Virus record (IMG/VR): IMGVR_UViG_3300050120_000230
Span: 1-64,000 of that record
DNA: 64,000 bases
Strand: one strand, 5' to 3'
From: a virus
Numbering within the stretch: position 1 is the first letter of the stretch; the number at the start of each line of letters is the position of its first letter. A program made the position numbers and the translations under genes. Positions 1-49,999 of this stretch are shown piece by piece. The notes beneath the pieces are model-generated. The model saw only the letters and a list, made by a program, of their open reading frames with translations. It did no database searches and was not told where the DNA came from.

Positions 1-2093
1 GTGCTGGCGATAGCTCCATCAAGTCGCTCTATGCGACACTCGATCAAATTCCGACCGTGACGATTGCTGAGAGCGGTGTCACGGCTGGCTTCAACATCAA
101 CAGCGTCGAGATCGACCAGTCGTGTGGACCGGGTTGGCGGAATGCCAGTTCGTATATGACTGGGATCAACATGACGATCACCGAACCGTTGGGTTCGAGC
201 CTCGTCGAAGCGATGATGAACGCCGCTATCGCGCTGAATGTCCAAGACTTCGGGAAGATGTGGTATTTCCTCGAACTCGTTTTCCAAGGCTACGACGAAG
301 ACGGAGACATCGAAACGACGCCGTTGTCTTCCTTGAACTTGGAGAACGGTGGCCGGTGGGTCTATCAGATCGCCATCACCAACATGGAAGTCAACATGAA
401 TGAGAGCGGGGCGAGCTACAAGCTCACCTGTATGCCTTATTCCATGCACGCTTTCGACGATCAGACCTGTGGCCGTGTGCCTGAAGTTCTCAGCGTCAAC
501 GGTGGAACCATCCAAGATTTCTGCAACGACTTCGCGACCAAATTGACCAAGTCTTGGACGGATCGCTATCTCGGCGAAATCTACACGTTCAAAATCAACA
601 TTCGCCCGCTGGTCGATGACAATCGGATTGCCGGTGGGTTCAAGCTCGCGCAAGGCGATTACGACCCGATCCGCAACCTGTCTCTAGACGCTGGTGACGG
701 CAAGACTCCGCACGCCCAAATTCCCGCCGGAACGACGATCAGCGATCTGATTATGTTCCTCTACTGCCACTGCGAAGACGCGCAGAAAATGATGCTGGAC
801 ACCACATCGCCACAGAACCTCGAAGACGGCGATGGCGAGACGGTCACCTACAACAAGAAGCAATATCGCGTGCCCATCGTTCCGCACGTCGAAGCGGACG
901 TGAAAGTCACCGGCTACGACCCGATCACCGGGCTCTACATGAAGGAAATTACCTACCACGTCTGGGGGTATCGTTCCTACACGACCAATCTCTCGAACAA
1001 ACAATACACGACGATGAAGGCCGATCCTTCGATCTCGGTGAAGATCGCGGATGAGCTTCGCACCCGAGGTTATCTCCGCAAGCGTTACGAGCACCGGTTC
1101 ACCGGTCTCAACACCGAAGTGCTGCGTTTCGACCTCGACTACAACTTCGCCTTCTCCACAGTCCTTCCGAAAATCACCGGCTGGCGCGAAGGGATCAACC
1201 AGACTTCAGATCATGCCAAACGTAACCCGGCGCTGACCGCGAACGCCGCGATGAATACGGCCGCTTTCCCGAACGAGACCACTGCCGGGACACCCGATGG
1301 CGATCCGCTCACGCAAGCACAATCAACGTTGGTCGCGGCGAACGATGGCATTTCGGAAGCCGAAGGCGTTGTGAACGATGAAACGGCCACTCCGGCTCAG
1401 AAGAATGCTGCGAACTCCGTGATCGCGGCGGCTAATCGTTCGAAGCAGGCAATTCAAGAACAGGTCGGTCGCATCCGTGCGAACGATCTTGCTGCACAGA
1501 AAGCATCTCGCGAACAGATCGAAGCTCAGGGTCCGGTCAACATCTATGCCGAAGACGCCGTCGTCGGCGACTCTCCGTTCAAACTGACCTACGTCCAAGG
1601 CCACGGCGAAGCATCGTCTGCTGCCGGAACGGGCTTCTTGGGTCAATGGCACCGTGGCGCCAGTCTGGCGGGGGCTGTGCTCAACCAGTTGCACGAGCCG
1701 CTCACCGAATCTCTCGCGAACATCACTCTCGAAATTCGCGGCGATCCCTACTGGATCGGATATTCGCACCTCGAACGCCGGTCCATCCTAAACGACGGTC
1801 TGAAGCACAACGCAGACTCACCGATGCCCAACTACACGGAAGGTGACTCGACGCTCGCTTTGATCCTGCGTTTCCCAAGCGGCATTGACCCAACGAGTGG
1901 CGCTCCGATCATCCGCGAAGACGATGTCTTCAACGGTCTCTATCGCGTGACTTCGATCAAGAGCGCGTTCAGCGGCGGTGAGTTCAAGCAGACGCTCGAA
2001 GCTTTCAAGCTCGAACTCATCACGATGATCCAGTCGAACAACAAGACAGGCGCCCAGCCTGCTCCCGGCGATGGGAGCACAGGCCAGCAATGA
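1..2093 (+). CDS. Tail/baseplate hub protein, 5' end outside window
   Basis: The frame is open to the first base with no stop, so the N-terminus lies outside the window; a GTG at 57 is merely internal. At least 690 residues are visible. The last 120 residues look like the hub domain of gp27/GpD-type proteins: a strand pattern ITLEIRGDPYWIGY, then GLYRVTSIKSAFSGGEFKQT near the C-terminus, the usual ending of hub proteins. It overlaps the gp5-like spike gene by four bases (ATGA), which fits hub and spike being made together. A helical Ala/Gln-rich stretch at about residues 420-510 may be an insertion. Family assignment to gp27 is by context and C-terminal motif; confidence in a structural hub role is good. 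Confidence 0.75.
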   Translation, partial: AGDSSIKSLYATLDQIPTVTIAESGVTAGFNINSVEIDQSCGPGWRNASSYMTGINMTITEPLGSSLVEAMMNAAIALNVQDFGKMWYFLELVFQGYDEDGDIETTPLSSLNLENGGRWVYQIAITNMEVNMNESGASYKLTCMPYSMHAFDDQTCGRVPEVLSVNGGTIQDFCNDFATKLTKSWTDRYLGEIYTFKINIRPLVDDNRIAGGFKLAQGDYDPIRNLSLDAGDGKTPHAQIPAGTTISDLIMFLYCHCEDAQKMMLDTTSPQNLEDGDGETVTYNKKQYRVPIVPHVEADVKVTGYDPITGLYMKEITYHVWGYRSYTTNLSNKQYTTMKADPSISVKIADELRTRGYLRKRYEHRFTGLNTEVLRFDLDYNFAFSTVLPKITGWREGINQTSDHAKRNPALTANAAMNTAAFPNETTAGTPDGDPLTQAQSTLVAANDGISEAEGVVNDETATPAQKNAANSVIAAANRSKQAIQEQVGRIRANDLAAQKASREQIEAQGPVNIYAEDAVVGDSPFKLTYVQGHGEASSAAGTGFLGQWHRGASLAGAVLNQLHEPLTESLANITLEIRGDPYWIGYSHLERRSILNDGLKHNADSPMPNYTEGDSTLALILRFPSGIDPTSGAPIIREDDVFNGLYRVTSIKSAFSGGEFKQTLEAFKLELITMIQSNNKTGAQPAPGDGSTGQQ

Positions 2094-4036
2094 AGCCGTC
2101 GTTCAACCCCAAAGTCTTGCCGCGTGGCTATCGCCGCGACTCGCACATGGGTCGCGTGCGGGACAGCAACATCTATGTCGGCGTAGTCAAGCGCAACGAC
2201 GACGGACAACGCATGGGCCGTCTGGCCGTGTGGATTCCAGAAATCGGCGGCGATCCGAACAATCCGCAGAACTGGTTCATCGTCAGTTACGCGAGCCCGT
2301 TCGCCGGTGTGACGAACCCCAACGCTCTCGTCGAAGATGCCACGAACCTCGACGGCACCCAGCAGTCGTATGGCTTCTGGATGAATCCGCCGGACCTTGA
2401 GAACCAAGTTCTGGTGTGCTTCGCCAATGGCGACACCGCCTTGGGATTCTGGTTCGCCTGCCTCTATCAGCAGAACATGAACCACATGGTGCCCGGCATC
2501 GCGACCGGCACTCCGACCGAAGATGGCAACTACTGTTCCAGTCAGCCGCCGGTGGCGGAATACAACAAGTGGAGCAAAGAGAACCCAGACAAGCCGAAGA
2601 GGGCTGCCTACACACCTCTGGCCAATGGTCTATCCGAACAAGGTCTTTTCTCTGATCCTGAACGTGGCCCGGCCGATTCGTCTGCTCGCCGCGAAGCACC
2701 GTCGAAGGTCTACGGCTGGCTGACGCCGCGTGGCAATCAAGTCTACGTCGATGACAACCCGGCCAACGAGTTCATCCGTATGCGAACTCGTTCCGGCGCC
2801 CAAGTGCTGGTCAACGAAACGACGGGCTTCGTCTACATCAACTCGAAGAACGGCAACTCGTGGGTCGAGATTTCCGACAAGGGTGTGGACATCTATTCCA
2901 AGGGTGCAGTCAGCCTGCGCTCTGAAGGTTCGCTGAACCTGCACGCCGATGGCTCCCTGAACATCGAAGCCGATGGTAACCTGAACCTGCGCGCCGGAGG
3001 CAACCTGACCCTTCAGAGCGCCCACCATTCGCACTTCGCGGGCAACGGCGATCTCGTTCTCGATTTCGGTGGAACTGCCAGCACCAAGGCTGGCGGAAAC
3101 ATTTTGCTGGCGGCTACTGGCGCTGTGCGCTCTGGCGCCGGTGGCGACATCACGGCTTCGTCCGGTGGTTCGAACATCCGCTCCGCTTCGGTCATCTTCG
3201 ACAATGCTTCGACAGCGGCCCCGCCTGCGAACGCTCCGTCTGCCAAGGTTGAGCAGCCGCGCGATCTACCGGAAGTGAACGGTTCGGCTCCCTGCTACCA
3301 ACAGAGCACGCGTAAAACGATCACGCGCCGGATGCCGACGCATGAACCGTTCGTCAACCACCCGAAGGCTGGGGGCTCTGGCGATCAATCGAACAACCCG
3401 GACCTTAAGAAATCCGACGAATACGCTTCAGCGGCGGACGCCAATTCGGTCGCCAATTCGAGCACCGTTCCGAACGACGACAACACGAGCTTCACGGATG
3501 ACGACGTGTCGTGGCTGACGGTCTGCCTGCTCACCGAAGCCGGTGGTCTTGGCGATGACATGCTGGCCGCTGTTGGACAGGTAGTGATGAACCGTTCTTC
3601 AGTCGGCTTCGCAGGCAATGTGCGAAACGATGCGTGGTCGGGCATCAAGAAATACGTGCTGGCCTATGCCGCATTCTCGTTTTTCTGGTCATCCAATGGC
3701 CGTAGCCTCGACGTGGGCGGTGGCAAGCCTGCTCGCTCTGGTTCGCCGCCCCGCCTGACGATCCCGCCCGCATTGTTCGCGGCCGGTGAGAAGAAGGGCA
3801 TCGATAAGATCAAGTCGTCGCAGGGCTCAACCGAATGGAACCACTGCAAGCAGATCGCGACGCAGCTTCTCGCAGGCACCTACAACGCCAGCACGGCTGT
3901 GGCGCCGATCAAAGCCAACAAACGGTGCACGATGTATGTGAACGCTAGCACGGCTTCGCCGGTGTGGGCTGTGCCGAGCAAGTTCGTCACTCAGGTCGGC
4001 CATCCGCGTCTGTCACACAGTTTCTACCTGCAATAA
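2090..4036 (+). CDS. 5: gp5-like central spike with C-terminal SleB-type cell wall hydrolase
   Basis: Protein of 648 residues. The N-terminal 120 residues form a gp5-type OB domain (SNIYVGVVKRNDDGQRMGRL, then WFIVSYASPFAGV). Residues about 215-370 contain short repeats such as GSLNLHADGSLNIEADGNLN, typical of the triple-stranded beta-helix needle. After a Ser/Asn-rich linker, residues about 470-648 resemble the SleB/Hydrolase_2 family: SWLTVCLLTEAGG with the likely catalytic Glu, AAVGQVVMNR, and the ending GHPRLSHSFYLQ. T4 gp5 instead has a T4-lysozyme domain between OB fold and needle. Here the enzyme is at the tip side after the needle. Role: puncture the outer membrane and cut peptidoglycan. 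Overlaps the hub gene by four bases. Confidence 0.88.
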   Translation: MKPSFNPKVLPRGYRRDSHMGRVRDSNIYVGVVKRNDDGQRMGRLAVWIPEIGGDPNNPQNWFIVSYASPFAGVTNPNALVEDATNLDGTQQSYGFWMNPPDLENQVLVCFANGDTALGFWFACLYQQNMNHMVPGIATGTPTEDGNYCSSQPPVAEYNKWSKENPDKPKRAAYTPLANGLSEQGLFSDPERGPADSSARREAPSKVYGWLTPRGNQVYVDDNPANEFIRMRTRSGAQVLVNETTGFVYINSKNGNSWVEISDKGVDIYSKGAVSLRSEGSLNLHADGSLNIEADGNLNLRAGGNLTLQSAHHSHFAGNGDLVLDFGGTASTKAGGNILLAATGAVRSGAGGDITASSGGSNIRSASVIFDNASTAAPPANAPSAKVEQPRDLPEVNGSAPCYQQSTRKTITRRMPTHEPFVNHPKAGGSGDQSNNPDLKKSDEYASAADANSVANSSTVPNDDNTSFTDDDVSWLTVCLLTEAGGLGDDMLAAVGQVVMNRSSVGFAGNVRNDAWSGIKKYVLAYAAFSFFWSSNGRSLDVGGGKPARSGSPPRLTIPPALFAAGEKKGIDKIKSSQGSTEWNHCKQIATQLLAGTYNASTAVAPIKANKRCTMYVNASTASPVWAVPSKFVTQVGHPRLSHSFYLQ

Positions 4037-6090: not shown

Positions 6091-6193
6091 GAGAAAGTGC
6101 CTCCTACCTATAATGGGGTCGCGAGAAGGCCATTATGTGCAGGCCATTTTTCAACTTTCTCGGAGTGTGGATTTTTCGTCACAGTATTTTTGG

Positions 6194-6221
6194 TTGACCA
6201 AAATCTCGAAATCACTACAAA
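6194..6221 (+). promoter_or_regulatory. Sigma70-like promoter with palindromic GGTTGACC
   Basis: TTGACC at 6194-6199, a 16-base spacer and TACAAA at 6216-6221, immediately before the L,D-transpeptidase gene. The -35 box lies inside the near-palindrome TTTGGTTGACCAAA, a motif that recurs upstream of other early-looking genes. The expected transcription start falls close to the ATG, so the leader would be very short or absent. Confidence 0.55.
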
Positions 6222-6228
6222 GGCGATG

Positions 6229-7260
6229 ATGAACAGTGTTGTCAAACCCGCGAAGTTTCTGATCGCTATAGTGACGCTTTGCTTCGCGACGATGGCGGCT
6301 GCTCAGAACACTCCGAGGGCTACAGCGTCACAAGGACAGTGGGCTCACTATTCGTCGGCTCAACCATTGATCGCCGTGGCGCCCACGCCAGAGGTCCCCA
6401 AGCCCGTTCCGGTGGTAGTTCCCGCACCTCACATCCAAAATCCCATCGAGCACGCGTTGCAAGTGGCCTTGGACGATTATCGCGCTGGCAAAACCAGTGA
6501 CGACGTGATCGCACGATATGGCGGAACACCATCCGCTTATGGCCACATGCTGGAATTGAACGTCGCCCGCGCACGGGCGCTGCCTTCGGTGTTCCCAGAA
6601 CGCTACGTCGTGGTGAACATCCCCTCGCAAACACTTGATCTTTACGTCGATGGCAAACGTGCCTTGACCATGCGGGTCATCACTGGTCGGCCGGATGCTC
6701 CTACGCCCACGATGGTGACCAACATCACCACGGCCATCTACAATCCCTACTGGAACGTCCCGTGGGAAATGGTGCGTGACACCTATTCGAAACGGGCCAT
6801 GGCCAACTCGCATTACCTGAAGTTGATGCACATGGAAGCACTCGACGGTTGGGGCGCGGACGCCAAGGTCATCCCAGAATCACAGGTTCCGTGGAAGGAC
6901 GTGGCGGCGGGGACGATCTACCAACGCGTTCGGCAGCGTCCGGGTGACGATAACATGATGGGCATCGTCAAGTTCGAGTTGGCGGACAACAGCAAGGGCA
7001 TCTATCTTCACGACACCCCGTTGCGGAAAAACTTCAACGGCACATGGGTTGTGCTTCACGCGATGAGTTCCGGTTGCATCCGTCTCTTCGACGCCAAGAC
7101 ACTCGCCAATGCCTTGATGGGAACGCAGCCCGCGTTTGCCGACACGGAACATCGCGTTCTGCTGACGAAGCCGGTGCCGATTTTCATCACCTATTTCACA
7201 GCGATGCCCAGTGAAACAGGATTGGTCTTCTACCATGACGGCTACGACGCCGATAAATAA
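6229..7260 (+). CDS. Secreted L,D-transpeptidase (YkuD family)
   Basis: 343 residues; an ATG at 6226 is an alternative start one codon earlier, but AAGG spacing favours 6229. The N-terminus is a signal peptide (KFLIAIVTLCFATMAAAQ). After a Pro-rich linker, residues about 125-330 are a YkuD catalytic domain: ERYVVVNIPSQTLDLYVDGK, YNPYWNVPWEM, KGIYLHDTPLRKNF and the active site SSGCIRLFDA with the nucleophilic Cys. The family makes 3-3 cross-links in peptidoglycan or attaches proteins to it, in the periplasm. A phage copy could reshape the wall during infection or lysis. Expressed from the promoter at 6194. Family call is firm; role is inference. Confidence 0.88.
   Translation: MNSVVKPAKFLIAIVTLCFATMAAAQNTPRATASQGQWAHYSSAQPLIAVAPTPEVPKPVPVVVPAPHIQNPIEHALQVALDDYRAGKTSDDVIARYGGTPSAYGHMLELNVARARALPSVFPERYVVVNIPSQTLDLYVDGKRALTMRVITGRPDAPTPTMVTNITTAIYNPYWNVPWEMVRDTYSKRAMANSHYLKLMHMEALDGWGADAKVIPESQVPWKDVAAGTIYQRVRQRPGDDNMMGIVKFELADNSKGIYLHDTPLRKNFNGTWVVLHAMSSGCIRLFDAKTLANALMGTQPAFADTEHRVLLTKPVPIFITYFTAMPSETGLVFYHDGYDADK
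7253..7259 (+). promoter_or_regulatory. T4-type late promoter motif (ATAAATA)
   Basis: The motif overlaps the stop codon of the L,D-transpeptidase gene. Four bases separate it from the GTG start at 7264. Confidence 0.6.
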
Positions 7261-7263
7261 TCA

Positions 7264-7737
7264 GTGCGCGAATACATCGACATTCTGGCCGAAGCTCAGA
7301 GCCAAATCCCACCCGAGCTTGCTGCCCAAATCCTTTCAGACCGGCTTTGCAAGCACGGGGTGAAACTGGCGCCGAGCGCACGTCTGTGGCGTGGCGAGGG
7401 TTCTGAAGGCGGAAGCGGGTTCGCCACCTATGGCCGAGGGCTCTACTTCACCGCTGATCGCAAAGTCGCGGCCGAATATGCCGGAGACGATGGCGAGATC
7501 GTCGAAATCGCTCGGGCCTATCTTCCCGACAATGCGCTGCGTTTCGACACCACAAATGATTTCCAGATTTGGAAGCAGAGGGCTTACACGCTGCTGGGCT
7601 TCAGAGGCCCGCAGGAGTTCGCAGCCGCATACGATGATCTTGGCGTTTTCATCCGCACCCTTGATCCGACCATCGACGGCATCCAGATGTTCACGGGCAA
7701 AGACTCCGTCTTCGTCCTCTACGGAATGGACGAGTAA
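7264..7737 (+). CDS. ADP-ribosyltransferase-like protein with capsid targeting sequence
   Basis: 157 residues starting MREYIDILAEAQSQIPPELA. The first ten residues match the capsid targeting sequence of T4 internal proteins (T4 IPII/IPIII begin MKTYQEFIAEA), with a prohead-protease-type site LAE/A at 10/11. The rest resembles the ART/PARP fold: LWRG at 42-44 as the first NAD-binding strand, YGRGLYFTADRKVAAEYA at 56-73 as in the G-x-G-[IL]-Y-F segment of PARP-like enzymes, and acidic residues near 79-81. No helical domain or other module. Prediction: packed in the head and injected, then modifying a host target, as T4 Alt does. The GTG start and late promoter fix this N-terminus. ART assignment is from motifs only. 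Confidence 0.65.
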   Translation: MREYIDILAEAQSQIPPELAAQILSDRLCKHGVKLAPSARLWRGEGSEGGSGFATYGRGLYFTADRKVAAEYAGDDGEIVEIARAYLPDNALRFDTTNDFQIWKQRAYTLLGFRGPQEFAAAYDDLGVFIRTLDPTIDGIQMFTGKDSVFVLYGMDE

Positions 7738-15966: not shown

Positions 15967-15973
15967 ATAAATA
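15967..15973 (+). promoter_or_regulatory. T4-type late promoter motif (ATAAATA)
   Basis: Five bases before the ATG at 15979, i.e. exactly where a T4-like late promoter would place transcription start on the A of the start codon. Confidence 0.6.
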
Positions 15974-15978
15974 CTCGT

Positions 15979-16473
15979 ATGCGCGAGTTCATGAATATCG
16001 TCAACGAAGGTCTGGCCGGAGAGGACGAGATGCTCAGTGAGGCAACACCGCGAAACTTCGGAAAATGGGCGGCGAGCATGGCCGGAGCAGCCGCGCTGGC
16101 GGCGGGGCTCAGTGGCTGCTCTGACACAACGTCTGGCAGTCCTACACCGGTTGTGAGCAAGGCAGATTGCGAGAGTGATGGCGGTGCCGGGTGCGAAACG
16201 GAAGCCGACAGTCCAGAAGGCGCCGAGGCTATCGACTATAAGAACGAGTGGAACAGGCGCCTTTGCCTTGCACAAGGTGGTGACTGGGACTCAAGTTCCA
16301 TGATACCCACCAAAATTGCCGATCACCCGCTCCGTGGGATGTGTAGCAATATAAGACAAAGAGATGCTTGTGCCGATGTTGGGGCCTGTCCCGAACTGGA
16401 TGATAAGGGCATGAAACAATGGGACAGGGATTGGTGGAAAGCGCACCCGAATCTCATCCAACCGAAACCGTGA
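15979..16473 (+). CDS. Capsid-targeted protein with internal lipobox-like segment
   Basis: 164 residues. The N-terminus MREFMNIVNEGLAGEDEMLS matches the capsid targeting sequence pattern, with possible prohead-protease sites VNE/G (10/11) and LSE/A (21/22). Next comes a hydrophobic segment ending in a lipobox-like AGLSGC (MAGAAALAAGLSGCSD), then a hydrophilic region with eight Cys. Known T4 internal proteins enter the cell with the DNA. A trimmed form exposing a lipoprotein-type signal would be a new twist, but lipid attachment of an injected protein is speculation. Late promoter directly upstream. Confidence 0.6.
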   Translation: MREFMNIVNEGLAGEDEMLSEATPRNFGKWAASMAGAAALAAGLSGCSDTTSGSPTPVVSKADCESDGGAGCETEADSPEGAEAIDYKNEWNRRLCLAQGGDWDSSSMIPTKIADHPLRGMCSNIRQRDACADVGACPELDDKGMKQWDRDWWKAHPNLIQPKP

Positions 16474-20135: not shown

Positions 20136-20702
20136 TCAGGGGCGGGGAATACGGGGCGACGCGGGGGCTGCTTGCGGAGTTTGCTGCTGTTGAGCCGCAG
20201 CGCGAGCGGCTGCACGTTCTGCATCGGCCTTGCGCTGCTCGATAGCGTCCCATGCTTCTTCTTCGGCTTCGTCTTCGCTGTGCCATGCACCCGACCACGT
20301 CTCTTCACCGGTCAGACGGAAGTAGTAGCCTTCGCCAGCACGATCTTCTTCACCGTCCGGGTCATCGTAGAAGAACTCGATCTCGAAAGGATCGTCTTCC
20401 ATCTTGGAAGGCCAGCCGGTGTTGGATTCGGTCATGACGGGCTCGATGTCGTCGAGGGTGAGGCGTGCAACATATTGCTCGCGACCATCTTCCTGTTCGT
20501 CATCGAATGCAACGAACACGTCAGGAGCATAGTCACTGCCGTGGTGACTGGGTTCGGAGCCGACCATGACACCTTCGCGGCCGGTCGCAGTTTCGCGAAC
20601 ACGCGCACCGTCTTCAGGGGCATCGTATTCGGTGTGGTGCACTTCGCCGTTGGGGTAACGAAGCTCGTTCGCTTCGTTGATGATGTCGATATACTTACGC
20701 AT
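20136..20702 (-). CDS. Acidic capsid-targeted protein
   Basis: 188 residues starting MRKYIDIINEANELRYPNGE, a capsid targeting sequence with site INE/A (10/11). The remainder is very acidic (FEIEFFYDDPDGEEDRAGEG) with a Gln/Ala/Pro tail. Residues 30-80 look beta-rich (ATGREGVMVGSEPSHHG). No enzyme motif. AAGGAG upstream. It sits between a virion fibre gene and the kinase-like gene and is probably transcribed with them. Likely an internal head protein. Confidence 0.65.
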   Translation of the reverse strand: MRKYIDIINEANELRYPNGEVHHTEYDAPEDGARVRETATGREGVMVGSEPSHHGSDYAPDVFVAFDDEQEDGREQYVARLTLDDIEPVMTESNTGWPSKMEDDPFEIEFFYDDPDGEEDRAGEGYYFRLTGEETWSGAWHSEDEAEEEAWDAIEQRKADAERAAARAAAQQQQTPQAAPASPRIPRP

Positions 20703-27700: not shown

Positions 27701-28653
27701 AACGATGAGGAGAAGGCGATGGTCCCGTTCTGCCGTGCGACCACGTTCCAAGCACCATCGGTATATGCGGTCCACACCCACGAGCCGGTGCCGTCGTCAT
27801 CGACGCGCACGAAGGTTGTCGTGGGATTGGGGTTCTCGGCGAGGTCACGGGCTTTGGCCGTGGCGTAGCGAACGACGGGCGGGTTGGTCGCGATGTAGCC
27901 GGTCGCATACCAGTCGATGTAGTCCCAAAAATCTCGCGTGCGATAGGTCTGATAGCGAAGCAGTTTGAAGCCTGCTGCATCCACGTCCGCGTCGCTGGAA
28001 ATACCGACGAACTCCCAGACGGTCCAGAAGCCAGAAGTCGTGCTCACGCCGTCCACGAGCACACGGGTGCCCACGGCAATCGGCGTAGAGCCTTGGGTCA
28101 GAAGATCGCGATCATGGAAAGACGTGACGTGGTGATCGTAGCCGGATGCGATGCTGAAAACTTCTTGCGGATTGGCGGCGATATGTTCGGGGGTCGGACC
28201 ACCGGCCGGGATGCTCGCGACGTAGACGCTCCATTGAGGGCCTTCTTGGTTTCCGAGACCGTTGACGAGAACGCTGGGATGTCCGCCAGCCAAAATCTCG
28301 GCAACGAACGCCGGATCGACCAACAGGCTGTCACGCTCTTGCAGCGAAAAAACTTGATAGTCCCACATGGTATTGGGTGGGGTGGCTTCGATCTGCGTCG
28401 TGCCCGGAGCCACGCGCCAGATGAGCGATTCTTGGACGGGAGTCTGTGCATCCATCAGGGCAACTGCCGAGGCGCGTTCGAGCGCCACCGGATTACGAGC
28501 AAAGATGATGTTGAGCATTCGCACAAAGGACGACCGCGCATCGAACAAGCCGGTGCGTGTGGAGTCCGTCACGAACATATTTTGGCCCGGCATGATACCA
28601 ACCGGGCCACCCTTGTAATATTTCGCGAGGGTGCCTGAAGAAGACTGCGTCAT
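24706..28653 (-). CDS. Large virion structural protein (1315 residues)
   Basis: Starts MTQSSSGTLAKYYKGGPVGI. Segments such as MWDYQVFSLQERDSLLVDPA and YLDEVKPYRVKTREFTR, and a Val/Asp/Thr-rich beta C-terminal half, resemble the very large structural proteins of T4-like phages of marine and soil alphaproteobacteria and cyanobacteria. No catalytic motif seen. Gene neighbours are fibres, so it is probably part of the baseplate periphery or fibre network. Exact T4 counterpart not identified. Confidence 0.75.
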   Translation of the reverse strand: MTQSSSGTLAKYYKGGPVGIMPGQNMFVTDSTRTGLFDARSSFVRMLNIIFARNPVALERASAVALMDAQTPVQESLIWRVAPGTTQIEATPPNTMWDYQVFSLQERDSLLVDPAFVAEILAGGHPSVLVNGLGNQEGPQWSVYVASIPAGGPTPEHIAANPQEVFSIASGYDHHVTSFHDRDLLTQGSTPIAVGTRVLVDGVSTTSGFWTVWEFVGISSDADVDAAGFKLLRYQTYRTRDFWDYIDWYATGYIATNPPVVRYATAKARDLAENPNPTTTFVRVDDDGTGSWVWTAYTDGAWNVVARQNGTIAFSSSFYDDPSRPTIGLDPISANDLAKIGNRDGSWEFQVLFNLLQDAPALEPLEVNELFFSIMHFVHAQQDQVPWAFKTSFLNVGGYNEALTQTPVQPIDNTQNLLNYLDEVKPYRVKTREFTRLVTPQTDIANASSTDFDFPVYLDPTTGRYRNLDLTSALDMSIITTQSPWKEWFANYQNPISDPDLYIASGWNGVRHMNIGLNFDRVDHMPLLASQQFTFISDRPNPLGFVMAGIDPSIIDMREEIVEVFVNSTRLTDAQFTSDTDSVTIDVMPNDGDIVTINVKQNLTSGLAGDRIQRFYDPENAEAAEKNLEVLMGLQFKGNVMDGGSLGDNTNRDYDIDGNAPLSNAAEDVETINPNERYFGFADPELDAGRPQELVVTGTGESLKMVVQTNFNLGTPPESFRKFDTSNTATSAAVLYFGDILMQYNDGVAVFRDGVRAEEGTDYTVNLETNEVTVQLVANSVQVNEVIVKAFGISSYTSVEDLEVLEYTTGTPTFTLLKDVTPYVISITLNGEFLQSSDYTLTANSLTLANTPSQPSRIVLLAQGNPSVMGQPMGSKVFNETLTYNGSQIWTLTNPSKPFTDEDESSIIEVDGLRLLPTTDYSISNGVLHITKTVDANSRIAATTFSDKDQLGLETSIVNATVNGLYTFDSPFGLSYVWMTVNGVYHDPTIPAPKTLPTGQEKVVITNFRGQPLSRASWLISMNRPSTDLMAPKEVGDYDARPHDTTLYDVGRVGDTGIDPESETRDIFVIRSDAYEFVTWGVPDATLVGDLTPTSNTITVVPSTLGVMPFSLPVAEELSTNSAVTLSEFDASDHHRIITKPGVIWLNDERIEFFAYEIVGNTNVVLSELRRGTHNTRICTEQRHLVSYTADGSATAFALPGETVVNDLSVSVFEPLSYADGQPIRSDGYTGYSVLVPKFSSGQTNTLGTIQHDYTPTVVNGNLIATFAVPPPAGATVYLSTSKGLIHPNGSDVHDGRRKLDIRPDRVFGGETFYS

Positions 28654-28658
28654 GATCC

Positions 28659-28665
28659 TATTTAT
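28659..28665 (-). promoter_or_regulatory. T4-type late promoter motif (ATAAATA)
   Basis: Five bases before the ATG of the 1315-residue protein. Confidence 0.6.
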
Positions 28666-28693: not shown

Positions 28694-29446
28694 TCAGTAG
28701 GAGATTTGCACGAAGCCTTGAACGCCAGAGCCGCCGACGAACCAGCTTGGGCCGGATCGATCATAAGAACCGCCACCGCCCCCGCCGGAACCATAGCCTG
28801 TGCCATCTTGGCCAGTGGTGCCGGGGCCAGCGTTGCCACCAGCGCCGCCAGCCGCACCGGCCAGAGGACCAGCGCCGCCCGGTGCACCCGGTGTGCTTGC
28901 AAAGTCGCTTGTGCCTGCCGGGCCGGTCTGTCCTGCATTGCCGTTAGGAGACCCGGAGAGGCCACCGGGAGCGGTGAGGCTGCCGTGGTTCACATTGGGG
29001 CTGCCGGAGCCTCCTTGGCCCCCAGAGGCCGTATAAACGTCGCTTCCGTGGGTGATAGTCGTGTCCCCGCCCGGATTGCCGTTTCCATCGACCGGATTGT
29101 GGTCGCTATTACCCGGAAGGTTGCCCGAACCGGGAAGGCCGATGTGAATAGTCAGCACGTCGCCGGGCGCGCAGGCGATGGGCACATTCTGTTGCCAGCC
29201 GCCGGAGCCGCCGCCGCCGCCGCCACCACCGGAACCGATCTGCGTCCCAGCGCCACCACCGGCGCCAGCACCAATCAGCCAGTCGATATTGACCGAGAAA
29301 ACACCGGGAGGAACGGTGAAGGAACCATCCGCAGTGAATTGCAGAGTGCCGGATGCAGCACTCGTCGTCGTGATAGAGAAAATTCGTTCGACGGGCGGGT
29401 TGACGCCATCCGATACCGAGACCGTAAACGAGGAGACTTGATCCAT
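28694..29446 (-). CDS. Glycine-rich adhesin-like virion protein
   Basis: 250 residues. A short N-terminal segment FTVSVSDGVNPPVERIFSIT looks like the end of an Ig-like repeat, followed by LQFTADGSFTVPPGVFSVNI and a long Gly-rich region (TQIGSGGGGGGGGSGGWQQN). Same type as the adhesin at 22000-23022. Probably carries a receptor-binding tip. Located between two giant virion genes. Confidence 0.7.
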   Translation of the reverse strand: MDQVSSFTVSVSDGVNPPVERIFSITTTSAASGTLQFTADGSFTVPPGVFSVNIDWLIGAGAGGGAGTQIGSGGGGGGGGSGGWQQNVPIACAPGDVLTIHIGLPGSGNLPGNSDHNPVDGNGNPGGDTTITHGSDVYTASGGQGGSGSPNVNHGSLTAPGGLSGSPNGNAGQTGPAGTSDFASTPGAPGGAGPLAGAAGGAGGNAGPGTTGQDGTGYGSGGGGGGSYDRSGPSWFVGGSGVQGFVQISY

Positions 29447-29450
29447 CCTC

Positions 29451-29457
29451 TATTTAC
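29451..29457 (-). promoter_or_regulatory. Late promoter-like motif (GTAAATA)
   Basis: Four bases before the start of the Gly-rich gene at 29446, overlapping the TAA stop of the 937-residue gene. Confidence 0.5.
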
Positions 29458-38200: not shown

Positions 38201-39751
38201 GGCGCCGGACGGAAGCGGGGTGTCGGGGTTCGACACGACGCGATAGATGAGGTTGTTCAGCGCGGGTTCGGTCGAGTTGGATTGATGCACGAACAGGCGG
38301 TCGTTTGGTTGCAGAACATAACCATCGTCAACGACCACAGAGCCCACGATGGTGCCGTCCGGCATGTGTGCGAAGAACTGCCCGTTGACCCGCGATAGCG
38401 CGATCTTACCGGTGTCCCAGACGTTGTCGTCGTTGGGGTTCAGGTCCCAATTGTCGATGACATCGACGGTCGAGTTCGAGAGCACGCCTTGCACGTCCGC
38501 AAGACGGCGGGTGCCATAGTTGAACAGTTCGATGTTCGGAAGGAACTCGATGATCGGCCGGGTGGCGCGACGAGAGGCGAAATCTTGACCGGTCCAATCG
38601 AGAGAAGCTTCGTGGACCCAGAGGTTGCGGCGTGTCCACGGGCTATCGTCGCGCGAACGGCGGTCGATCACCACGTATTGGGGCGTAGAACCGCCTGTGT
38701 CGCCCGAGTAGTCGGGTGTTAGATTGATTGCTTGCCCAACGCCGTCGAGGATGAAAGGCCGCCCAGTGGCCACGGTAGTGCCGATTCCGTCGATCAGACG
38801 CACGCGCGAACCCGATGTCGCCATCTGGGCATTGATCGCAGGTTCCCACTTCAGGATGTCGAGCAGGAACCGCACCGATGCGGTGTGTGCGGTGACACAG
38901 GTCCAGACCATCGGGCTGCCGTGCTCATCTTCCGCGAAGGTGAGTTCGCCCACTTCGTAGGTGCGCGGCAGGTTCACATAATCGTTGCTGTCGTTGAGAC
39001 CCGGAAACACCGATTGCCATGCCAAGAACGGCGAGTAATCCAGCGTGACCAGACCGTCGAGAACGGCGGTCATATCGCCATAGCGAATGGTTTCGATGTA
39101 GTCGCCCACCGACAGGCCAGAGGTCGAGATGACCGCATCGCCGTGCGTGGTGACGTTGTTCGCGACTGGCACACCATTGACGAGGACGACCGGCACTTCA
39201 CCTTCGCCGACGAACACGGGATCGGCGGGCGGCAGAGCGTAGGCCGTGGTGGCGGCGTTGCCGTCGTAAACGTAGACCGCGCGTTCAGCGCGCAGGTTGA
39301 TGATCGAGTTCGCAGTCTCGTCGTCGGTGAGCGAACCCATCCAGACGTATTGCAGATAGTTGTTCAGCTTATCGAGATCGACCGGCGGCGCCCACGAGTA
39401 GTAGTCGCCTTCGAACATACGGCTGTGGTTGTTCACGGCCGCGCCCTGCGAACGCAGGTAGTTGATGAGATCGTCGTAGCACAGGCTGTCCGTCAGAACG
39501 CCACCTGTGTTCGACGAGATCATCGCGGGTTCAAGCTGATAGGCAGTGCGCGACGGAGACGGTTCGGCAAGGTAAAAATCCTTGTCCGGGTTGTAGTAAA
39601 CGGGCTTTTGGCCGACGTAACCACTAATCGCTTCCGACTCACCCGGCTGGAACAGTTGATCGACTGTCGCAGCAAAGAAGTTCTTCAGCGTATCCGTTTG
39701 CAGGACAGCCGGAAGCTGGGTGATTAGACGACGCTTGGGAGTCTTGGCCAT
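32264..39751 (-). CDS. Giant virion structural protein (2495 residues)
   Basis: Starts MAKTPKRRLITQLPAVLQTD, LKNFFAATVDQLFQPGESEA. Mostly beta-rich with repeated phrases on wording like V-x-x-N-D-x-x-F-V-x-x and many Trp/Tyr. A module near residues 1800-1930 (GTRVFQSTAGEAPYISSDDS to LRVNRSY) matches one in the 937-residue neighbour. The C-terminus is Pro/Asp-rich and overlaps the next gene. Proteins of this size and N-terminus occur in T4-like phages outside enterobacteria, probably as baseplate or fibre-network components. GTAAATA lies four bases upstream of the start; another GTAAATA at 32335-32329, inside this gene, may serve the gene at 32267. Confidence 0.75.
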   Translation of the reverse strand: MAKTPKRRLITQLPAVLQTDTLKNFFAATVDQLFQPGESEAISGYVGQKPVYYNPDKDFYLAEPSPSRTAYQLEPAMISSNTGGVLTDSLCYDDLINYLRSQGAAVNNHSRMFEGDYYSWAPPVDLDKLNNYLQYVWMGSLTDDETANSIINLRAERAVYVYDGNAATTAYALPPADPVFVGEGEVPVVLVNGVPVANNVTTHGDAVISTSGLSVGDYIETIRYGDMTAVLDGLVTLDYSPFLAWQSVFPGLNDSNDYVNLPRTYEVGELTFAEDEHGSPMVWTCVTAHTASVRFLLDILKWEPAINAQMATSGSRVRLIDGIGTTVATGRPFILDGVGQAINLTPDYSGDTGGSTPQYVVIDRRSRDDSPWTRRNLWVHEASLDWTGQDFASRRATRPIIEFLPNIELFNYGTRRLADVQGVLSNSTVDVIDNWDLNPNDDNVWDTGKIALSRVNGQFFAHMPDGTIVGSVVVDDGYVLQPNDRLFVHQSNSTEPALNNLIYRVVSNPDTPLPSGATADVIELVLEGQPVRGDIIRVGHPTDSVFTDPVEYWFDGIEWQIAQTGASNPLFMLYDSSENALNDDNVYQGTDFAGSRLFGYKIGTGTPDAVLGFPIIVNSFAQPLFEIDPVVNRVTYVGGTVSGFYYHHFLSETDNGSFSNNWFPVATPSTQALVNGVYEIPLNLQANPGNLQVDTISRNEWFDHFSEIMTQQVGFTGHPYSVNNWRDTAKVLGNGNKILQHRSPLLKTMLISANANYDLPSSLRYAEQEYSRFRNKFVQTILDFRAAGTLVDTDAPELWVTAILNQLRLNKTSDFPFSGSTMAGGQFFIPPTPASMGLASVSQPVIYVDNSFSSPVTLVRGHDGSAVPAFGDMRDPIMLALEQRIFDNINARFKTEARPLFDLQHYVATKFVTATDLNYTSAEIDAMYSPYFQRWAQINRLDYRANNSYDPSNPFTWNFSSSVDRESNPVPGNWRGIYILYYDTFRPHVAPWEMLGFVDKPTWWQGEYGPAPYTSGNTKLWEDLRDGLIRGGPRAGTDVRYARADLDLVLPVDEEGNLLDPIQCGIIPDAPTYQQATAPWQAGDIGPVEALWRLSQSFCFAQAQIGFLIKPARFVEQGWDTTNLIQDDTGQWIYGPTGNRPLDSTIYVHGELDLTGTKVVAEGVQQWISDYMVSRGQAPSNFGSAIRGLTVKLAHKVAGFTTSDNLRVLADNFGLLPAEDVDVQLYHSPSTREEVYSGVVIEWTGQGWRVIGYDTRTPFFTTIPGLENGPKGLISLASTPEPVINTWRPNTYYPSGTNVAYQSTVYSAIKGHTSSAVFDQTFWSVVSAIPQQAPRVVTYGRGGPDTQQVAYGTVFATFQQVADFLLSYERYLVAHGWVFDQVNPDTQEPLDWSLAVREFLAWSQVNWQPGNFIALSPGASGLKFNTDHGMVLDVLSPINGVYGMLDRAGMPIKRENVVVNRIDGEAMLLSKNSDVFGSRVNIGEIEHVLIFNNTTIFNDIIYAPLFNLRQPRLRLIGNRAMDWNGRLDIPGYVLIDNVIKSNFDKAATDLLTMWDIEKADNATLRDHARHSIGYDSRDYLASLVLSEVEQFEFYQGLIHQKGAPGAFNKLLRSDFIEQSRDLQFFEEWAIKIDEYGAIQNRNRVAFLFGQSTVKRDPQYIEFRVTDANSPVVSQQPDWIELADSTITGVDSKWVERPNNPLSTFPQRPNAKPLPGDLPVSGYVRLTEVDHTVFSVDDVLTVYDANAGVTLPLGEVVWVHNNLESREISQVSATDWYELGIALGSGHWDGTSNARTLANDQTTVLDDGTRVFQSTAGEAPYISSDDSFVPVPGETYNVSFSVRKTLRETNGIKAFVRPAFDAFKADGSDAPALGTKSGFGFTKQTDMIDTSNWVLDRWYDVECEWTVPISPPFTEARSRLRVNRSYPDDLVTTPYSDAIFEVMSQEMVVSKRPVWDALKVYNLSADGNTNTVANVVTNAEDITLSNTTTRIYTVNPHGLVSTDRGLFIVIDGDTFSDPLLQGVQRVWDLGDNWIDILTTGKKGYEFVSKGQIGPALRVLRTIHFTNLDEFNSFKNRVGVLDGDIAYVDGSPWRVYQRGSITEILDDYADGEVQPDNQITIADDNNRRTDTFKFWNVVRSQPTRMDGARIASSLIYNLKTKVTTTSLEPEPLSLDHLTVVTPLTGIIPGRAKAEIDYIVDYDPANYNVVPSSFDEDGTPSFSSTGQAVGPWGPAQVGRVWWDLKTVRFLETETDNVSFGLTSSSRYNQEVQYRIGHWGQIAPSTSVDVYEWTRSTLHPLEYEAAVLTDTTGTIDGVVYNSENPSWVEAEESVGGVIATYFYFWVKNRLNIPANVGRQMSVATVSNFITNPMIEDQPWIAPVMPNGVLVGGVNPFLDDTFDESTESASSGTVLQIEVSDDDEGVVHDQWLLLRPQDERSLPPEWLWEKLRDSLVGFDQTKMLLPPVLVLPSAVTSVNKPPVWYTGPDADDVPIDPSLR

Positions 39752-39755
39752 ACTG

Positions 39756-39762
39756 TATTTAC
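39756..39762 (-). promoter_or_regulatory. Late promoter-like motif (GTAAATA)
   Basis: Four bases before the ATG of the 2495-residue protein. Confidence 0.5.
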
Positions 39763-46604: not shown

Positions 46605-47880
46605 TGTCTTCGATTTCAGCGCGCAGTTCTTTGACGGCTTCGATCAACAATGCCGCGAGGTTGCCGTAGGCGACCGACAGCAAGCCGTTCGTTTGTTCGT
46701 GAACGACTTGCGGCATGATTTCCTGCATTTCTTGCGCGATAACACCGATTTGCTCGGGGTTGCCAGCAATATCAGCGCGCTTGAAGTAAGTGCCGCGCAG
46801 CATATCGACCTTGTCGAGAGCATTCTCGATAGTGCGGATGTCATACTTGATGGTCACGTCGGACAAGCTGGTGATTTCACCCACGGCCGTGATCTGGCCG
46901 CCGACGAACAGATCACCGCCAATGTTGGCATTGTCTGCGACGATCAAATTGTTGTTGATCGTCAGTTGGCCCGACATCGTGTCGCCGGTCTTCTGAACAG
47001 CGTTGGCGTCAGAGCCGGTGGCATTGGCCAACAGGGCGGACAGGCCGACGACGTTGTTTGCGACGGTGTAGACATTGGAGACACCACCGTGGTCGGTGAT
47101 GCTCGTGTTCGAGATAGCGTATGCGAAATCGGAGCGGATCATGGCATCGTTGGCGATGCGATCCGTGATTTCCTGATTGAGTGCATTGGCCGTGAACGTT
47201 GCGGTCGTCAGCGCATTCGCGGCATCGGCGGAAGCATTTGCTGAATCGGCCACGGCGTTGTCGATCAAGCTGCCGAACATACCCACGGTGTTCGCGAGGT
47301 CGTTCAAGGCGTCTTGGTTGACGAAAATGTTGTCGATCTCAGCTTGCAGCGCGGTATCTGCGTTCGCACGCAGGGTTTCTTCGGTGCTCAGTGCACCCGC
47401 AAGTGACGACAGAGCCGAGTTGGCGATGGCAAACTGTCCAGTGACGTAGCTCAACGGCACGGCATCGGTAGGCAGAGTCGGAGAATAGCCCAGTGTCAGC
47501 TTCGTGGTGATCGTCATGGTTGAGAGCGTGACGAGACCGGCCGCATCCTTAAAAATGCCCGAACGCCAGCCAGAACCATTGTAGAATTGAATGCCGGTAG
47601 ACGGATCGTAGCGGATCATGCCGGTGAGCGGCGTGCCGGGATCACCGATGGGCAAAACCAGTCCGTTGTCCTTGTAGGACCCGGTCAGGATGACATCGGC
47701 GCCGGACATCGTGGCCGCCAGTGCAACGATGCTGTTCGCATCGCTGTGCATGATTTGCAGACGTTCGACAGCGGTTTTGATGATCGCGAAGTTGTCGCGG
47801 AACTGCTGTGACGACTGATCCACGTTCGGCAGGGGGAAACCTGCGCTGAAAACAATATTTTGGCCGCTGTCGATACCCAT
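46576..47880 (-). CDS. Tail fibre with C-terminal S74 chaperone domain
   Basis: 434 residues. A long coiled-coil stalk (many A/N/T) precedes LTINNNLIVADNANIGGDLF and the intramolecular chaperone: SDVTIKYDIRTIENALDKVD, then IGVIAQEMQEIMPQVVHE and LIEAVKEL (about 345-430). The S74/endosialidase chaperone trimerises the fibre and then cuts itself off, with a Ser-Asp at the cleavage site (LSDVTIKYDI). Host-recognition fibre. Confidence 0.85.
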   Translation of the reverse strand: MGIDSGQNIVFSAGFPLPNVDQSSQQFRDNFAIIKTAVERLQIMHSDANSIVALAATMSGADVILTGSYKDNGLVLPIGDPGTPLTGMIRYDPSTGIQFYNGSGWRSGIFKDAAGLVTLSTMTITTKLTLGYSPTLPTDAVPLSYVTGQFAIANSALSSLAGALSTEETLRANADTALQAEIDNIFVNQDALNDLANTVGMFGSLIDNAVADSANASADAANALTTATFTANALNQEITDRIANDAMIRSDFAYAISNTSITDHGGVSNVYTVANNVVGLSALLANATGSDANAVQKTGDTMSGQLTINNNLIVADNANIGGDLFVGGQITAVGEITSLSDVTIKYDIRTIENALDKVDMLRGTYFKRADIAGNPEQIGVIAQEMQEIMPQVVHEQTNGLLSVAYGNLAALLIEAVKELRAEIEDIKDRLPPKS

Positions 47881-47885
47881 GAGGA

Positions 47886-47892
47886 TATTTAT
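47886..47892 (-). promoter_or_regulatory. T4-type late promoter motif (ATAAATA)
   Basis: Five bases before the fibre ATG at 47880. Confidence 0.6.
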
Positions 47893-47902
47893 CCGCGACG
47901 GG

Positions 47903-49987
47903 TCAGGTGCTCGTGGTGTTGAACTTCGCTCTATTCATGCGGAAGAACTTGCCTTCGGTGAACACCAGCGTGTCGAGACGAACCGTGTTCTGATCGAACG
48001 TGGTAGTTGCACCATCAAACGTCGTCTGGATGCCCATGGTCTGGAAAATCATGAAATATTGGTCGAACTCAACTTCGTGACCATCGCGAACTGGATCGCT
48101 GCTGTCAGTTGCCCGTGCGGCCGGAACTGAACGCAGGGAGATACGGTCGAGCACGCCTTGCCCGGTTCCCGGTTGCAGATAAGCCAGCACCACAGCCGGA
48201 ATGTAGCCTAGAGCCGTGGACGCATCGGTTCCGGTCTGCGGGCACGTCATCCACAGCGGGAGGTTCTCAGGGCCTTTGAGGCTCATGTCGTGAGTTTCAG
48301 TCGGATCGAGCGCCGGGAAGCCCAATGCATTCACGAACTCGGCGCGGATGTTGTTGATGCTGGACGGATGAATGAACGTCGTATTCGACGGCGTAGATTG
48401 CGGGTAGCGAACAGGAGACTCGACGGGCACACCGTCTGTCACGGTCCAACCGCCAGCGTGTTCCAGAGGATCAACCACTTCGCGATAGAGCACCTCGTAA
48501 ATCACCACGCCGTCGATCTTGGCAAATGCGATCTTGTGATCTCCCAGTCGAAGTTTGACCGGACCATCGAGATTTGACGCACGAACTGTCTGCTCAAGCA
48601 CGGAAGCATTTCCTTGCAGGCCACCGGCCAAGAAAATGCTCATGCTCGAAGTCACACCGGCCGGGCCGTAGTTCGGGTCCTGCTGGCGGAAATATTCTTC
48701 TGCGTTGATGACCGACGAATAGTAGGTCGTCAGCGGTGTGGTCGTCTTCACACGGACCTTGAACGTCATGTTGAAGAAGGTCTCAACGCTGTAGCGGCTC
48801 AGAACCTTGATCGAGAATTGGCGATCTTGGAACGTGTCGCTCACCTGTGCGCGGATCGTGAACGTAAACGTCTGGTCAGCCGGGATATGGGCCAAAATGC
48901 CTTCGATGTCGCCGGTTGCCGTATTCAACGACAAGCCGGGCGGCAAGGGAGAATTGTTGGAGGCCAGTGAATAGACCACAGGTTCGCCGGTGGTGCAGGT
49001 TGCCCGCACACCAATCGGAAACGCTTGTGCTTCGGGCAATGTGGCCAGCAGCCCGGCAGGCGTGACCCACAGGATGAAGCGCAGCGGCTCCAAGGCGCTG
49101 AAGGGCGGCGAAATCTCGATCATGAACGTCTTCGGCGTGGCGCCGGAACCCGTCGTGATCGGGTTGCCCCGGTTGTCGAGCATTTCAATCGTGAAGAAGT
49201 ATTTCCCAAGCTGGGCATCGGCCGCGATGGTGCCGCTCACGACTCCCGTGTGCGGATCGACGCTCAAGCCCGGAGGAAGCGTGTTGAACGGCGAAACGAT
49301 GTCGGTCGCACCGATGAACGTTTCGACAACCAACGTAGGCGGCAGGCCGCCCGGTTGAGAGATTGCGATCTGATATACAAAGGGCGTTCCACGGGTCGTT
49401 GCACCAATTGGAACGAAATCAAACGCCGATGGTTGTGCTTGTTGAGTCTGCTCCGGCGGCAGGCTGCCCCATGACGGGGGCGCCGCTTGAACCGTAGCCG
49501 GGTCAGCTTCGATGGAGAAACTGCGATCTCGCGAGTAGGTTCCATCGGAAATACGCACGGCAAAGCTATAGGTCAGAGACGGACCATCTGTCGGAAGCAC
49601 ACCGACTTTACCCGAAATCTCACCCGTCGAAGACAACGACAGGCCGGGCGGCAAATTGTCGTGCAGCATGGAATACGAGATGGGCTCCGACGTGGTCAGG
49701 TCAACGACATCGGTGTTGCTCAGAGCATTATGAAACTCAATCGCATTGGCGATCAAGGTATAGGCAGTATTTGCCAAAGACTGACTGTTGAGTTGCACCT
49801 CGGTGAGGAAGGACACACTTGGGCCAATGTGAACGATGGTGTTACCAAATGCTAGGATAGCATCGGAATCATCGCCCATGAACTTAGCTTTACGGGAGGC
49901 CGCAAGCGTTTGGGACACCAAATCGTTCTCGGTAACGGGAGTCAAAGCGCCCGCAAGTGTCGTCCAAACAGGGTAAAAGGTGACCAT
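47903..49987 (-). CDS. Virion protein with putative-Ig domains, 694 residues
   Basis: Starts MVTFYPVWTTLAGALTPVTE. Several He_PIG-type repeats: ISYSMLHDNLPPGLSLSSTG, VYSLASNNSPLPPGLSLNTA and others. A beta-rich C-terminal domain follows. Third protein in the window with such repeats. Probably a surface-exposed tail or baseplate decoration. Confidence 0.7.
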   Translation of the reverse strand: MVTFYPVWTTLAGALTPVTENDLVSQTLAASRKAKFMGDDSDAILAFGNTIVHIGPSVSFLTEVQLNSQSLANTAYTLIANAIEFHNALSNTDVVDLTTSEPISYSMLHDNLPPGLSLSSTGEISGKVGVLPTDGPSLTYSFAVRISDGTYSRDRSFSIEADPATVQAAPPSWGSLPPEQTQQAQPSAFDFVPIGATTRGTPFVYQIAISQPGGLPPTLVVETFIGATDIVSPFNTLPPGLSVDPHTGVVSGTIAADAQLGKYFFTIEMLDNRGNPITTGSGATPKTFMIEISPPFSALEPLRFILWVTPAGLLATLPEAQAFPIGVRATCTTGEPVVYSLASNNSPLPPGLSLNTATGDIEGILAHIPADQTFTFTIRAQVSDTFQDRQFSIKVLSRYSVETFFNMTFKVRVKTTTPLTTYYSSVINAEEYFRQQDPNYGPAGVTSSMSIFLAGGLQGNASVLEQTVRASNLDGPVKLRLGDHKIAFAKIDGVVIYEVLYREVVDPLEHAGGWTVTDGVPVESPVRYPQSTPSNTTFIHPSSINNIRAEFVNALGFPALDPTETHDMSLKGPENLPLWMTCPQTGTDASTALGYIPAVVLAYLQPGTGQGVLDRISLRSVPAARATDSSDPVRDGHEVEFDQYFMIFQTMGIQTTFDGATTTFDQNTVRLDTLVFTEGKFFRMNRAKFNTTST

Positions 49988-49992
49988 GCCCT

Positions 49993-49999
49993 TATTTAT
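49993..49999 (-). promoter_or_regulatory. T4-type late promoter motif (ATAAATA)
   Basis: Five bases before the ATG of the 694-residue protein. Confidence 0.6.

Follow-up and report, generated by a model that had tools for sequence, protein, structure and literature searches.

In phage T4, the ADP-ribosyltransferase (ART) Alt is delivered from the capsid and modifies the host RNA polymerase (PMC9026906). Each of the T4 internal proteins Ip1, Ip2 and Ip3 blocks a GmrSD restriction enzyme (PMC12373910). In the leader of IPIII, residues 4 and 7 steer capsid targeting and residues 8 and 10 control cleavage, the protease gp21 cleaves after L/I-X-E, and foreign proteins get packaged when fused to a capsid-targeting sequence (CTS) (PMC9026906). 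Frequent head packaging of phage ARTs was argued earlier from protein fusions and gene neighbourhood, and virion delivery has been proposed for the ART-PolyVal class (PMC9503650). Here we compare with these systems the gene ART-A, located at 7264–7737 (+) in a 64,000-nucleotide stretch of viral DNA (the window), which comprises bases 1–64000 of the 415,409-base IMG/VR record IMGVR_UViG_3300050120_000230.

We consider it likely that ART-A is an ART that is made late, packaged in the capsid, trimmed by a protease and injected together with the DNA, as one of a large set of similarly tagged effectors, with its catalysis, cleavage, packaging, injection and target all being predicted. By sequence comparison, the source phage has Agrobacterium phage Atu_ph07 and Sinorhizobium phage Phosso among its relatives (Rak2-like/Atu_ph07 jumbo phages): its baseplate hub gene (2090–4033) is 42% and 40% identical to theirs, respectively, over 64% of its length, and PHROG matches of further window genes are to tail, baseplate and virion structural families. 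Related virus records were selected through this baseplate protein, and 18 of 79 such loci were taken on; they bear labels such as G007 and G015 below, with G000 denoting the 415-kb record itself.

A predicted ADP-ribosyltransferase fold

The open reading frame (ORF) of ART-A is real, with a GTG start and orthologs in two of the 18 related records, G015 (51% identity, E 5.5e-44) and G007 (47%, E 1.2e-37), that align over nearly the whole length; three other related records gave weak partial matches only. Because these near-full-length orthologs exist and all three aligned sequences keep the motifs unchanged, the frame is not a chance one. Its translation has 157 residues, ten more than the 147 given in the original prediction, a miscount that happens to equal the length of the protein once its first ten residues are removed.

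The residues invariant among the three orthologs are R43 of LWRG, Y56-G57-x-G59-x-Y61-F62-T63, D138-G139-x-Q141 and D147. Motif I, LWRG (7384–7395, +), had been placed at residues 42–44 and is indeed present, with its position corrected to 41–44 and its arginine at R43. Motif II, YGRGLYFTADRKVAAEYA (residues 56–73; 7429–7482, +), contains YGRGLYFT at 56–63 and AAEYA at 69–73, both as originally reported, and is the portion that scores against the Pfam family ART-PolyVal. A candidate motif III region, DGIQMFTGKDSVFVLY (residues 138–153; 7675–7722, +), holds D147 and Q141, either of which may be the third catalytic residue, a role proposed from the three-sequence alignment only.

Database searches with ART-A returned no match in PHROG (up to E 1), NCBIfam or PDB sequences, and tblastn against phages and plasmids gave nothing at a meaningful E-value. 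A peptide-pattern scan of viral contigs with ART-A alone found no relative, and neither did a scan of genome contigs; a scan with the three-sequence alignment picked up the two orthologs already in hand, plus three matches confined to the motifs. Scans with the YGRGLYFT pattern recovered mainly large polyvalent proteins and chance frames, and hidden Markov model matches among those loci, being circular, were excluded from the evidence. The profile of the three orthologs matched a profile of five larger tagged ARTs (the ART-D group) with an E-value of 6.9e-7 through motifs I and II, in an alignment that partly covers the leader itself. These sister proteins also carry arginine at motif I, where LYRGD is invariant in all five.

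An AlphaFold model built from the three orthologs alone had a mean predicted local distance difference test score (pLDDT) of 62, and diphtheria toxin (Z 4.9) and MbcT (Z 4.3) led its eight matches in the VIA fold comparison, which also included KptA, RES and Pseudomonas exotoxin A. Most of these eight belong to the ART superfamily; a SAIP match is not clearly an ART by its title, and 1wot is not one. When the alignment was extended by six ART-like proteins from this phage group, the resulting nine-sequence model reached a pLDDT of 82.3 and a predicted template modeling score of 0.78, and among the VIA matches listed, 50 of 50 were of the ART superfamily (diphtheria-toxin group, MbcT, PARP1/2), with a best Z of 5.4. 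We take the PARP, RES and diphtheria-toxin-type entries to be members of that superfamily from their titles and from general knowledge. Several ART-PolyVal phage proteins were found for the nine-sequence model in BFVD, and Foldseek against the PDB gave no match at E 0.001 for either model. The superfamily assignment is consistent across both predicted structures. Thus ART-A very probably has an ADP-ribosyltransferase fold, as predicted by modeling, with an activity that we infer from it. The original prediction had called the product an ART-type enzyme and proposed comparing its predicted structure with ART folds; motifs, model and fold comparison all bear this out, and a fold devoid of ART likeness was not what came back.

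A capsid-targeting-like leader and a late-type promoter box

The first ten residues of ART-A, MREYIDILAE (7264–7293, +), form a capsid-targeting-like leader with a predicted prohead-protease cut after E10. ART-A starts MREYIDILAEA and T4 IPIII and IPII (NC_000866) start MKTYQEFIAEA in the same register, so that positions 1, 4, 9, 10 and 11 are identical to IPIII and positions 2, 7 and 8 are similar. T4-type CTS leaders are classical, and the ART-A leader has the features of the internal-protein type: about ten residues, an aromatic Y4, a hydrophobic I7, and L8-A9-E10 as L/I-x-E. Its score against the IPIII leader, with the first two residues omitted, is 20, a value equaled by one of 1651 control ORFs. 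The leader is retained in the G015 ortholog (MRKFINLIEEA), and residues 1–12 are the sole segment of the nine-sequence model with a pLDDT below 50. Similar leaders occur in relatives (MKTYADILVES, MKTYFEIVAES), on an ART-like protein of G000 (MSIRQFMNIIVES), and on Atu_ph07 gp206, which is encoded beside the protease gene and opens MSIRKFLNIINES.

A TAAATA box resembling the −10 element of T4 late promoters lies at 7254–7259 (+), 4 nt before the ART-A start, and overlaps the upstream stop codon. That stop codon belongs to the gene directly upstream (6097–7260, +), which encodes an L,D-transpeptidase whose N-terminal stretch is signal-like (YkuD; Pfam E 9.2e-22). Across the window, TAAATA-N2–6-RTG occurs at 10 sites where 0.80 are expected, a number reached by none of 100 dinucleotide shuffles. 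These sites include the starts of genes for 2495-, 1315-, 937-, 694- and 434-residue proteins on the minus strand, two of which, among those scanned, have virion PHROG matches: the 1315-residue virion structural gene (box and ATG at 28651–28664, −) and the 434-residue tail fibre gene (47878–47891, −) have the same promoter type as ART-A, and further boxes lie 4–5 nt before the starts of large genes at 29444–29456, 39749–39761 and 49985–49998 (all −). The likeness of its box to those of virion structural genes suggests that ART-A is expressed late.

In T4, late promoters consist of a TATA box of 8 bp, placed roughly one helical turn upstream of the transcription start (PMC2988020). In 85 of 88 tagged genes, meaning those with both box and leader, the spacing from box to start codon is 4–5 nt; transcription would therefore begin at or beside the start codon, and tagged genes are likely to give leaderless mRNAs. 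The boxes on the starts of large minus-strand genes, some of them with virion PHROG matches, suggest that leaderless late mRNAs may be made phage-wide.

The tagged gene set across related records

Box and tag occur together at about two dozen dispersed genes of the 415-kb record, where TAAATA-N2–10-RTG-MGN has 29 matches versus 2 in a reversed control. Enrichment of the tighter pattern was also found in G002 (28 versus 0), G003 (32 versus 4), G005 (26 versus 2), G007 (29 versus 5), G008 (22 versus 0), G015 (49 versus 1) and the 79-kb G018 (7 versus 0); the remaining 11 of the 18 related records either are short fragments or display hardly any enrichment, if any.

Among boxed ORFs with arginine at position 2 in this record and its relatives, 88 of 98 have a hydrophobic-x(1,2)-E motif at residues 5–14 (21 of 23 in this record alone), compared with 32 of 150 box-less first-ATG ORFs starting MR (Fisher p 4.6e-28) and 264 of 1535 others; the boxed ORFs include orthologs among records and are thus not fully independent, and the controls include many ORFs that are not genes and perhaps a few true CTS genes. 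The excess of arginine itself is not evidence because the stretches were picked by a pattern requiring R or S at position 2, whereas the hydrophobic-x-E motif played no part in picking them. ORFs shorter than 60 residues or running off a stretch end were left out of these counts; G015 contributed one translated stretch, its 49 sites being counted without translation, and G008 was counted only. In G000, 23 proteins pass the filter, including a tail-type protein that we judged a false positive (L078, MREG...), and a CTS-like protein at 271760 (−), MRLVELFNN..., misses it.

Within the window, a second gene with both box and leader lies at 15968–16473 (+; ORF 15979–16473) and encodes a 164-residue protein, MREFMNIVNE..., that has no Pfam family; a lipobox-like LSGC is found about 45 residues into this product. 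Another CTS-like gene (20136–20702, −; 188 residues, MRKYIDIINEANE...) has a Shine-Dalgarno-like AAGGAG instead of TAAATA. In Atu_ph07, 11 of 24 candidates were judged CTS-like by eye, mostly without a box, and these include gp206, near the head maturation protease gene gp204. Further examples are the genes at 165981–166637 (+) and 398269–398748 (−). Another Atu_ph07 protein of this kind, at 303788–304783 (+; L300:1788-2783), starts MKLINLLE and continues with an ART/DarT-like YHITDYTG, seen by eye and with no Pfam match.

Cargo of the tagged proteins

A Pfam scan of 20 further tagged proteins from this record placed two above the ART-PolyVal cut-off (ART-B and ART-C) and one below it, and identified one cell-wall hydrolase, one GNAT acetyltransferase and one weak HNH match, the rest having no convincing family. 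PHROG added ParB-like matches and a kinase-like protein near 263 kb of the record (L073:924-1505, −), which matches phrog_15752, a host-transcription-inhibiting kinase, at E 2.8e-5. ART-like motifs were seen by eye in four more tagged G000 proteins (99136, 208250, 249674 and 261543), which we regard as a lead. In relatives, 10 of 77 tagged proteins have an ART-PolyVal match with E ≤ 0.01, and other Pfam matches are to Acb1, SprT, GNAT, cell-wall hydrolase and T5orf172.

The Acb1 protein, encoded in G007 (L250:13116-14192), matches the family that counters the cyclic-oligonucleotide-based antiphage signaling system (CBASS) with a Pfam E-value of 1.4e-37 and carries both a TAAATA box and the leader MRAFELFEE, making it a candidate virion-delivered anti-CBASS enzyme. 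Its presence in the tagged set is the ground on which we argue for counter-defence as a major purpose. Also in G007, the ART-A ortholog sits in a 598-residue protein (L257:1700-3496) that starts MREFMKIVESAEYD. Behind its ART part this protein carries another CTS-like leader, MRNFMNILEGDMP, in an internal position, possibly reflecting tagged genes fused in series as a cleavable effector polyprotein.

Proposed delivery and alternative explanations

In the mechanism that we propose, ART-A would be transcribed late from a T4-type late promoter set on its start codon, and its leader would draw the protein into the prohead core, where a gp21-like head maturation protease of the phage would cut after E10. 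The trimmed protein would remain in the capsid with the DNA, be injected into the next host, and use nicotinamide adenine dinucleotide (NAD+) to modify a host macromolecule, such as RNA polymerase or part of a defence system, ahead of phage gene expression. Together with its DNA, the virus would thus probably inject a whole battery of proteins that disarm the host. In Atu_ph07, gp204 is the head maturation protease (phrog_207), and homologs were found in six of eight records searched. In Atu_ph07 and four relatives, the major capsid protein has near residue 20 a shared site, L-(L/C)-E-G or C-E-G, which is compatible with the same protease specificity.

Several observations weigh against this interpretation. 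The ART-PolyVal score of ART-A (PF18760) is 15.1 bits, below the gathering cut-off of 31.2, its fold Z-scores are all below 8, the tool's caution level, and the better model was built with other ART-like proteins in the alignment. With arginine in place of histidine as the first catalytic residue and an uncertain third one, the protein could have changed or lost its activity. The box pattern is not enriched in Atu_ph07 (6 versus 8 in the control), Phosso (8 versus 5) or several more distant relatives; 10 of the 98 boxed ORFs lack the leader motif, and part of the 88 that have it do so by chance, such as a metallophosphoesterase (L236:3068). The phrog_207 protease was not found in the 415-kb record or in the 240-kb G005 among the eight searched, a search of this record with Pfam Peptidase_S77 had no match but is uninformative, its controls being equally silent, and a search for a late sigma factor with the Atu_ph07 protein as query, run without a positive control, found nothing in it. 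That the protease is missing here is most readily accounted for if the record is incomplete, as it may be.

The activity of the injected protein could also be of another kind, namely a RES/MbcT-like NADase or phosphorylase that reduces host NAD+ or redirects it, for example to counter NAD-signaling defences. MbcT of M. tuberculosis, a RES-domain NAD+-degrading toxin, is the top Foldseek match of both ART-A models and aligns over 112 residues at Z 5.1 in the VIA comparison with the nine-sequence model, and the arginine at the first catalytic position fits as well, but the Foldseek E-values are weak (0.25 and 0.09), no RES family was matched in Pfam, and motif II is of the YGxGxYFT type as in ART-PolyVal proteins; we therefore keep an NADase as a live, if unlikely, rival to the transferase. 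The replacement of histidine at that site, together with the weak Pfam score and no obvious catalytic glutamate, would suit a decayed, catalytically dead ART retained as a structural or binding domain. This appears improbable given that R43, YGxGxYFT and D147 stay unchanged among orthologs about 50% identical and that the sister tagged group likewise has arginine in its invariant motif.

Delivery, too, can be read differently. The N-terminal motif might be some other sorting or regulatory peptide common to accessory proteins, acting in membrane association or partner binding: it is short, amphipathic-looking and variable, the comparison with T4 spans very distant phages, and sequence alone does not prove packaging. 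Against this stand its in-register identity with IPIII at Y4, A9, E10 and A11, the late promoter common to tagged and virion genes, and the similar leaders of gp206 beside the Atu_ph07 protease gene, of the G000 ART-like protein and of proteins in relatives, so that we give a non-CTS peptide little weight, about as little as a dead enzyme. An ordinary early host-takeover ART, made after infection and left unpackaged, has precedents in the ModA/ModB-type enzymes of T4 and in the frequency of ARTs in jumbo phages (PMC9503650), yet it conflicts with the late-type promoter on the start codon and with a CTS-like leader that is kept in an ortholog, and is the least probable of these alternatives. 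We accordingly favor a capsid-delivered transferase as the reading of ART-A.

A broader proposal, to which we incline with less confidence, is that this jumbo-phage clade has converted the internal-protein device of T4 into a delivery platform open to new cargo, in which a start-codon box and a tag of about ten codons would make any acquired gene product capsid-loaded, protease-trimmed and injected. Each genome would hold some 20–50 such cassettes (ARTs, acetyltransferase, kinase, nucleases, peptidases, Acb1), some of them joined serially into a cleavable polyprotein that bears an internal tag, and the proteins injected would be directly readable from sequence.

Comparison with known systems

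The proteins that giant phages inject at entry are largely uncharacterised: of the 131 virion proteins of Atu_ph07, 78% have no assigned function (PMC6102473), and, according to a 2026 review, Tad1 is the sole anti-defence protein described from jumbo phages (PMC13282480). Provided that the tag does mean packaging, the injected effectors of the whole phage group, including many ARTs, could be listed from sequence alone, and Acb1 would be placed to act ahead of the build-up of the CBASS signal. Being short and testable, the tag would also offer a way to load proteins into capsids of very large size.

The original prediction described ART-A as a minimal analogue of T4 Alt, whose stated length of 682 residues we confirmed in NC_000866. 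The analogy holds in the sense of delivery, on account of the CTS-like leader and the T4-late-type promoter: Alt is a capsid-delivered ART (PMC9026906) and delivery is predicted for ART-A. It fails as homology. T4 Alt matches phrog_802, a family detected in T4 as a positive control and in none of eight records of this phage group, whereas ART-A has no PHROG match and its three-sequence profile reaches an hhalign probability of 0.2% against Alt, and we rejected it as an Alt-family homologue. By sequence, ART-A is not Alt by descent, the two proteins having no detectable relation and differing in length (682 versus 157 residues). Alt itself has the N-terminus MELITE and a T4 late promoter, TATAAATA, upstream. 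The word "minimal" is the weaker part of that description: ART-A is a stand-alone ART domain, and a relative has a still smaller CTS-tagged ART-like protein of 127 residues.

Among the closest known systems are T4 IPI, IPII and IPIII, whose short N-terminal leader likewise closes with hydrophobic-x-E ahead of a small residue, the ART-A leader being in the register of IPII and IPIII, and which also place varied cargo behind a common leader, with a counter-defence role shown for Ip1–3 (PMC12373910). T4 has a few such proteins, in contrast to about two dozen tagged ones per genome here, many of them enzymes, and ipI, ipII and ipIII have no TAAATA within 60 nt upstream, whereas most tagged genes here have the box on the start codon. 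With ART-PolyVal proteins, which are polyvalent and MuF-fusion phage proteins, ART-A has the YGxGxYFT motif II in common, and ART-B and ART-C of its own genome exceed the Pfam cut-off; ART-A differs in scoring below that cut-off, in having arginine rather than histidine at motif I, and in standing alone behind a CTS-like leader rather than being fused to a head protein. Atu_ph07 resembles this phage in its baseplate hub and also has CTS-like genes, yet shows no enrichment of the TAAATA-start arrangement. Among titles and the openings of abstracts, with most subscription journals and preprints outside the coverage, we found no description of a tagged arsenal in this phage group. Head-packaged ARTs and the T4 CTS are already known, while for jumbo phages related to Atu_ph07 an arsenal this large that can be read from sequence looks new.
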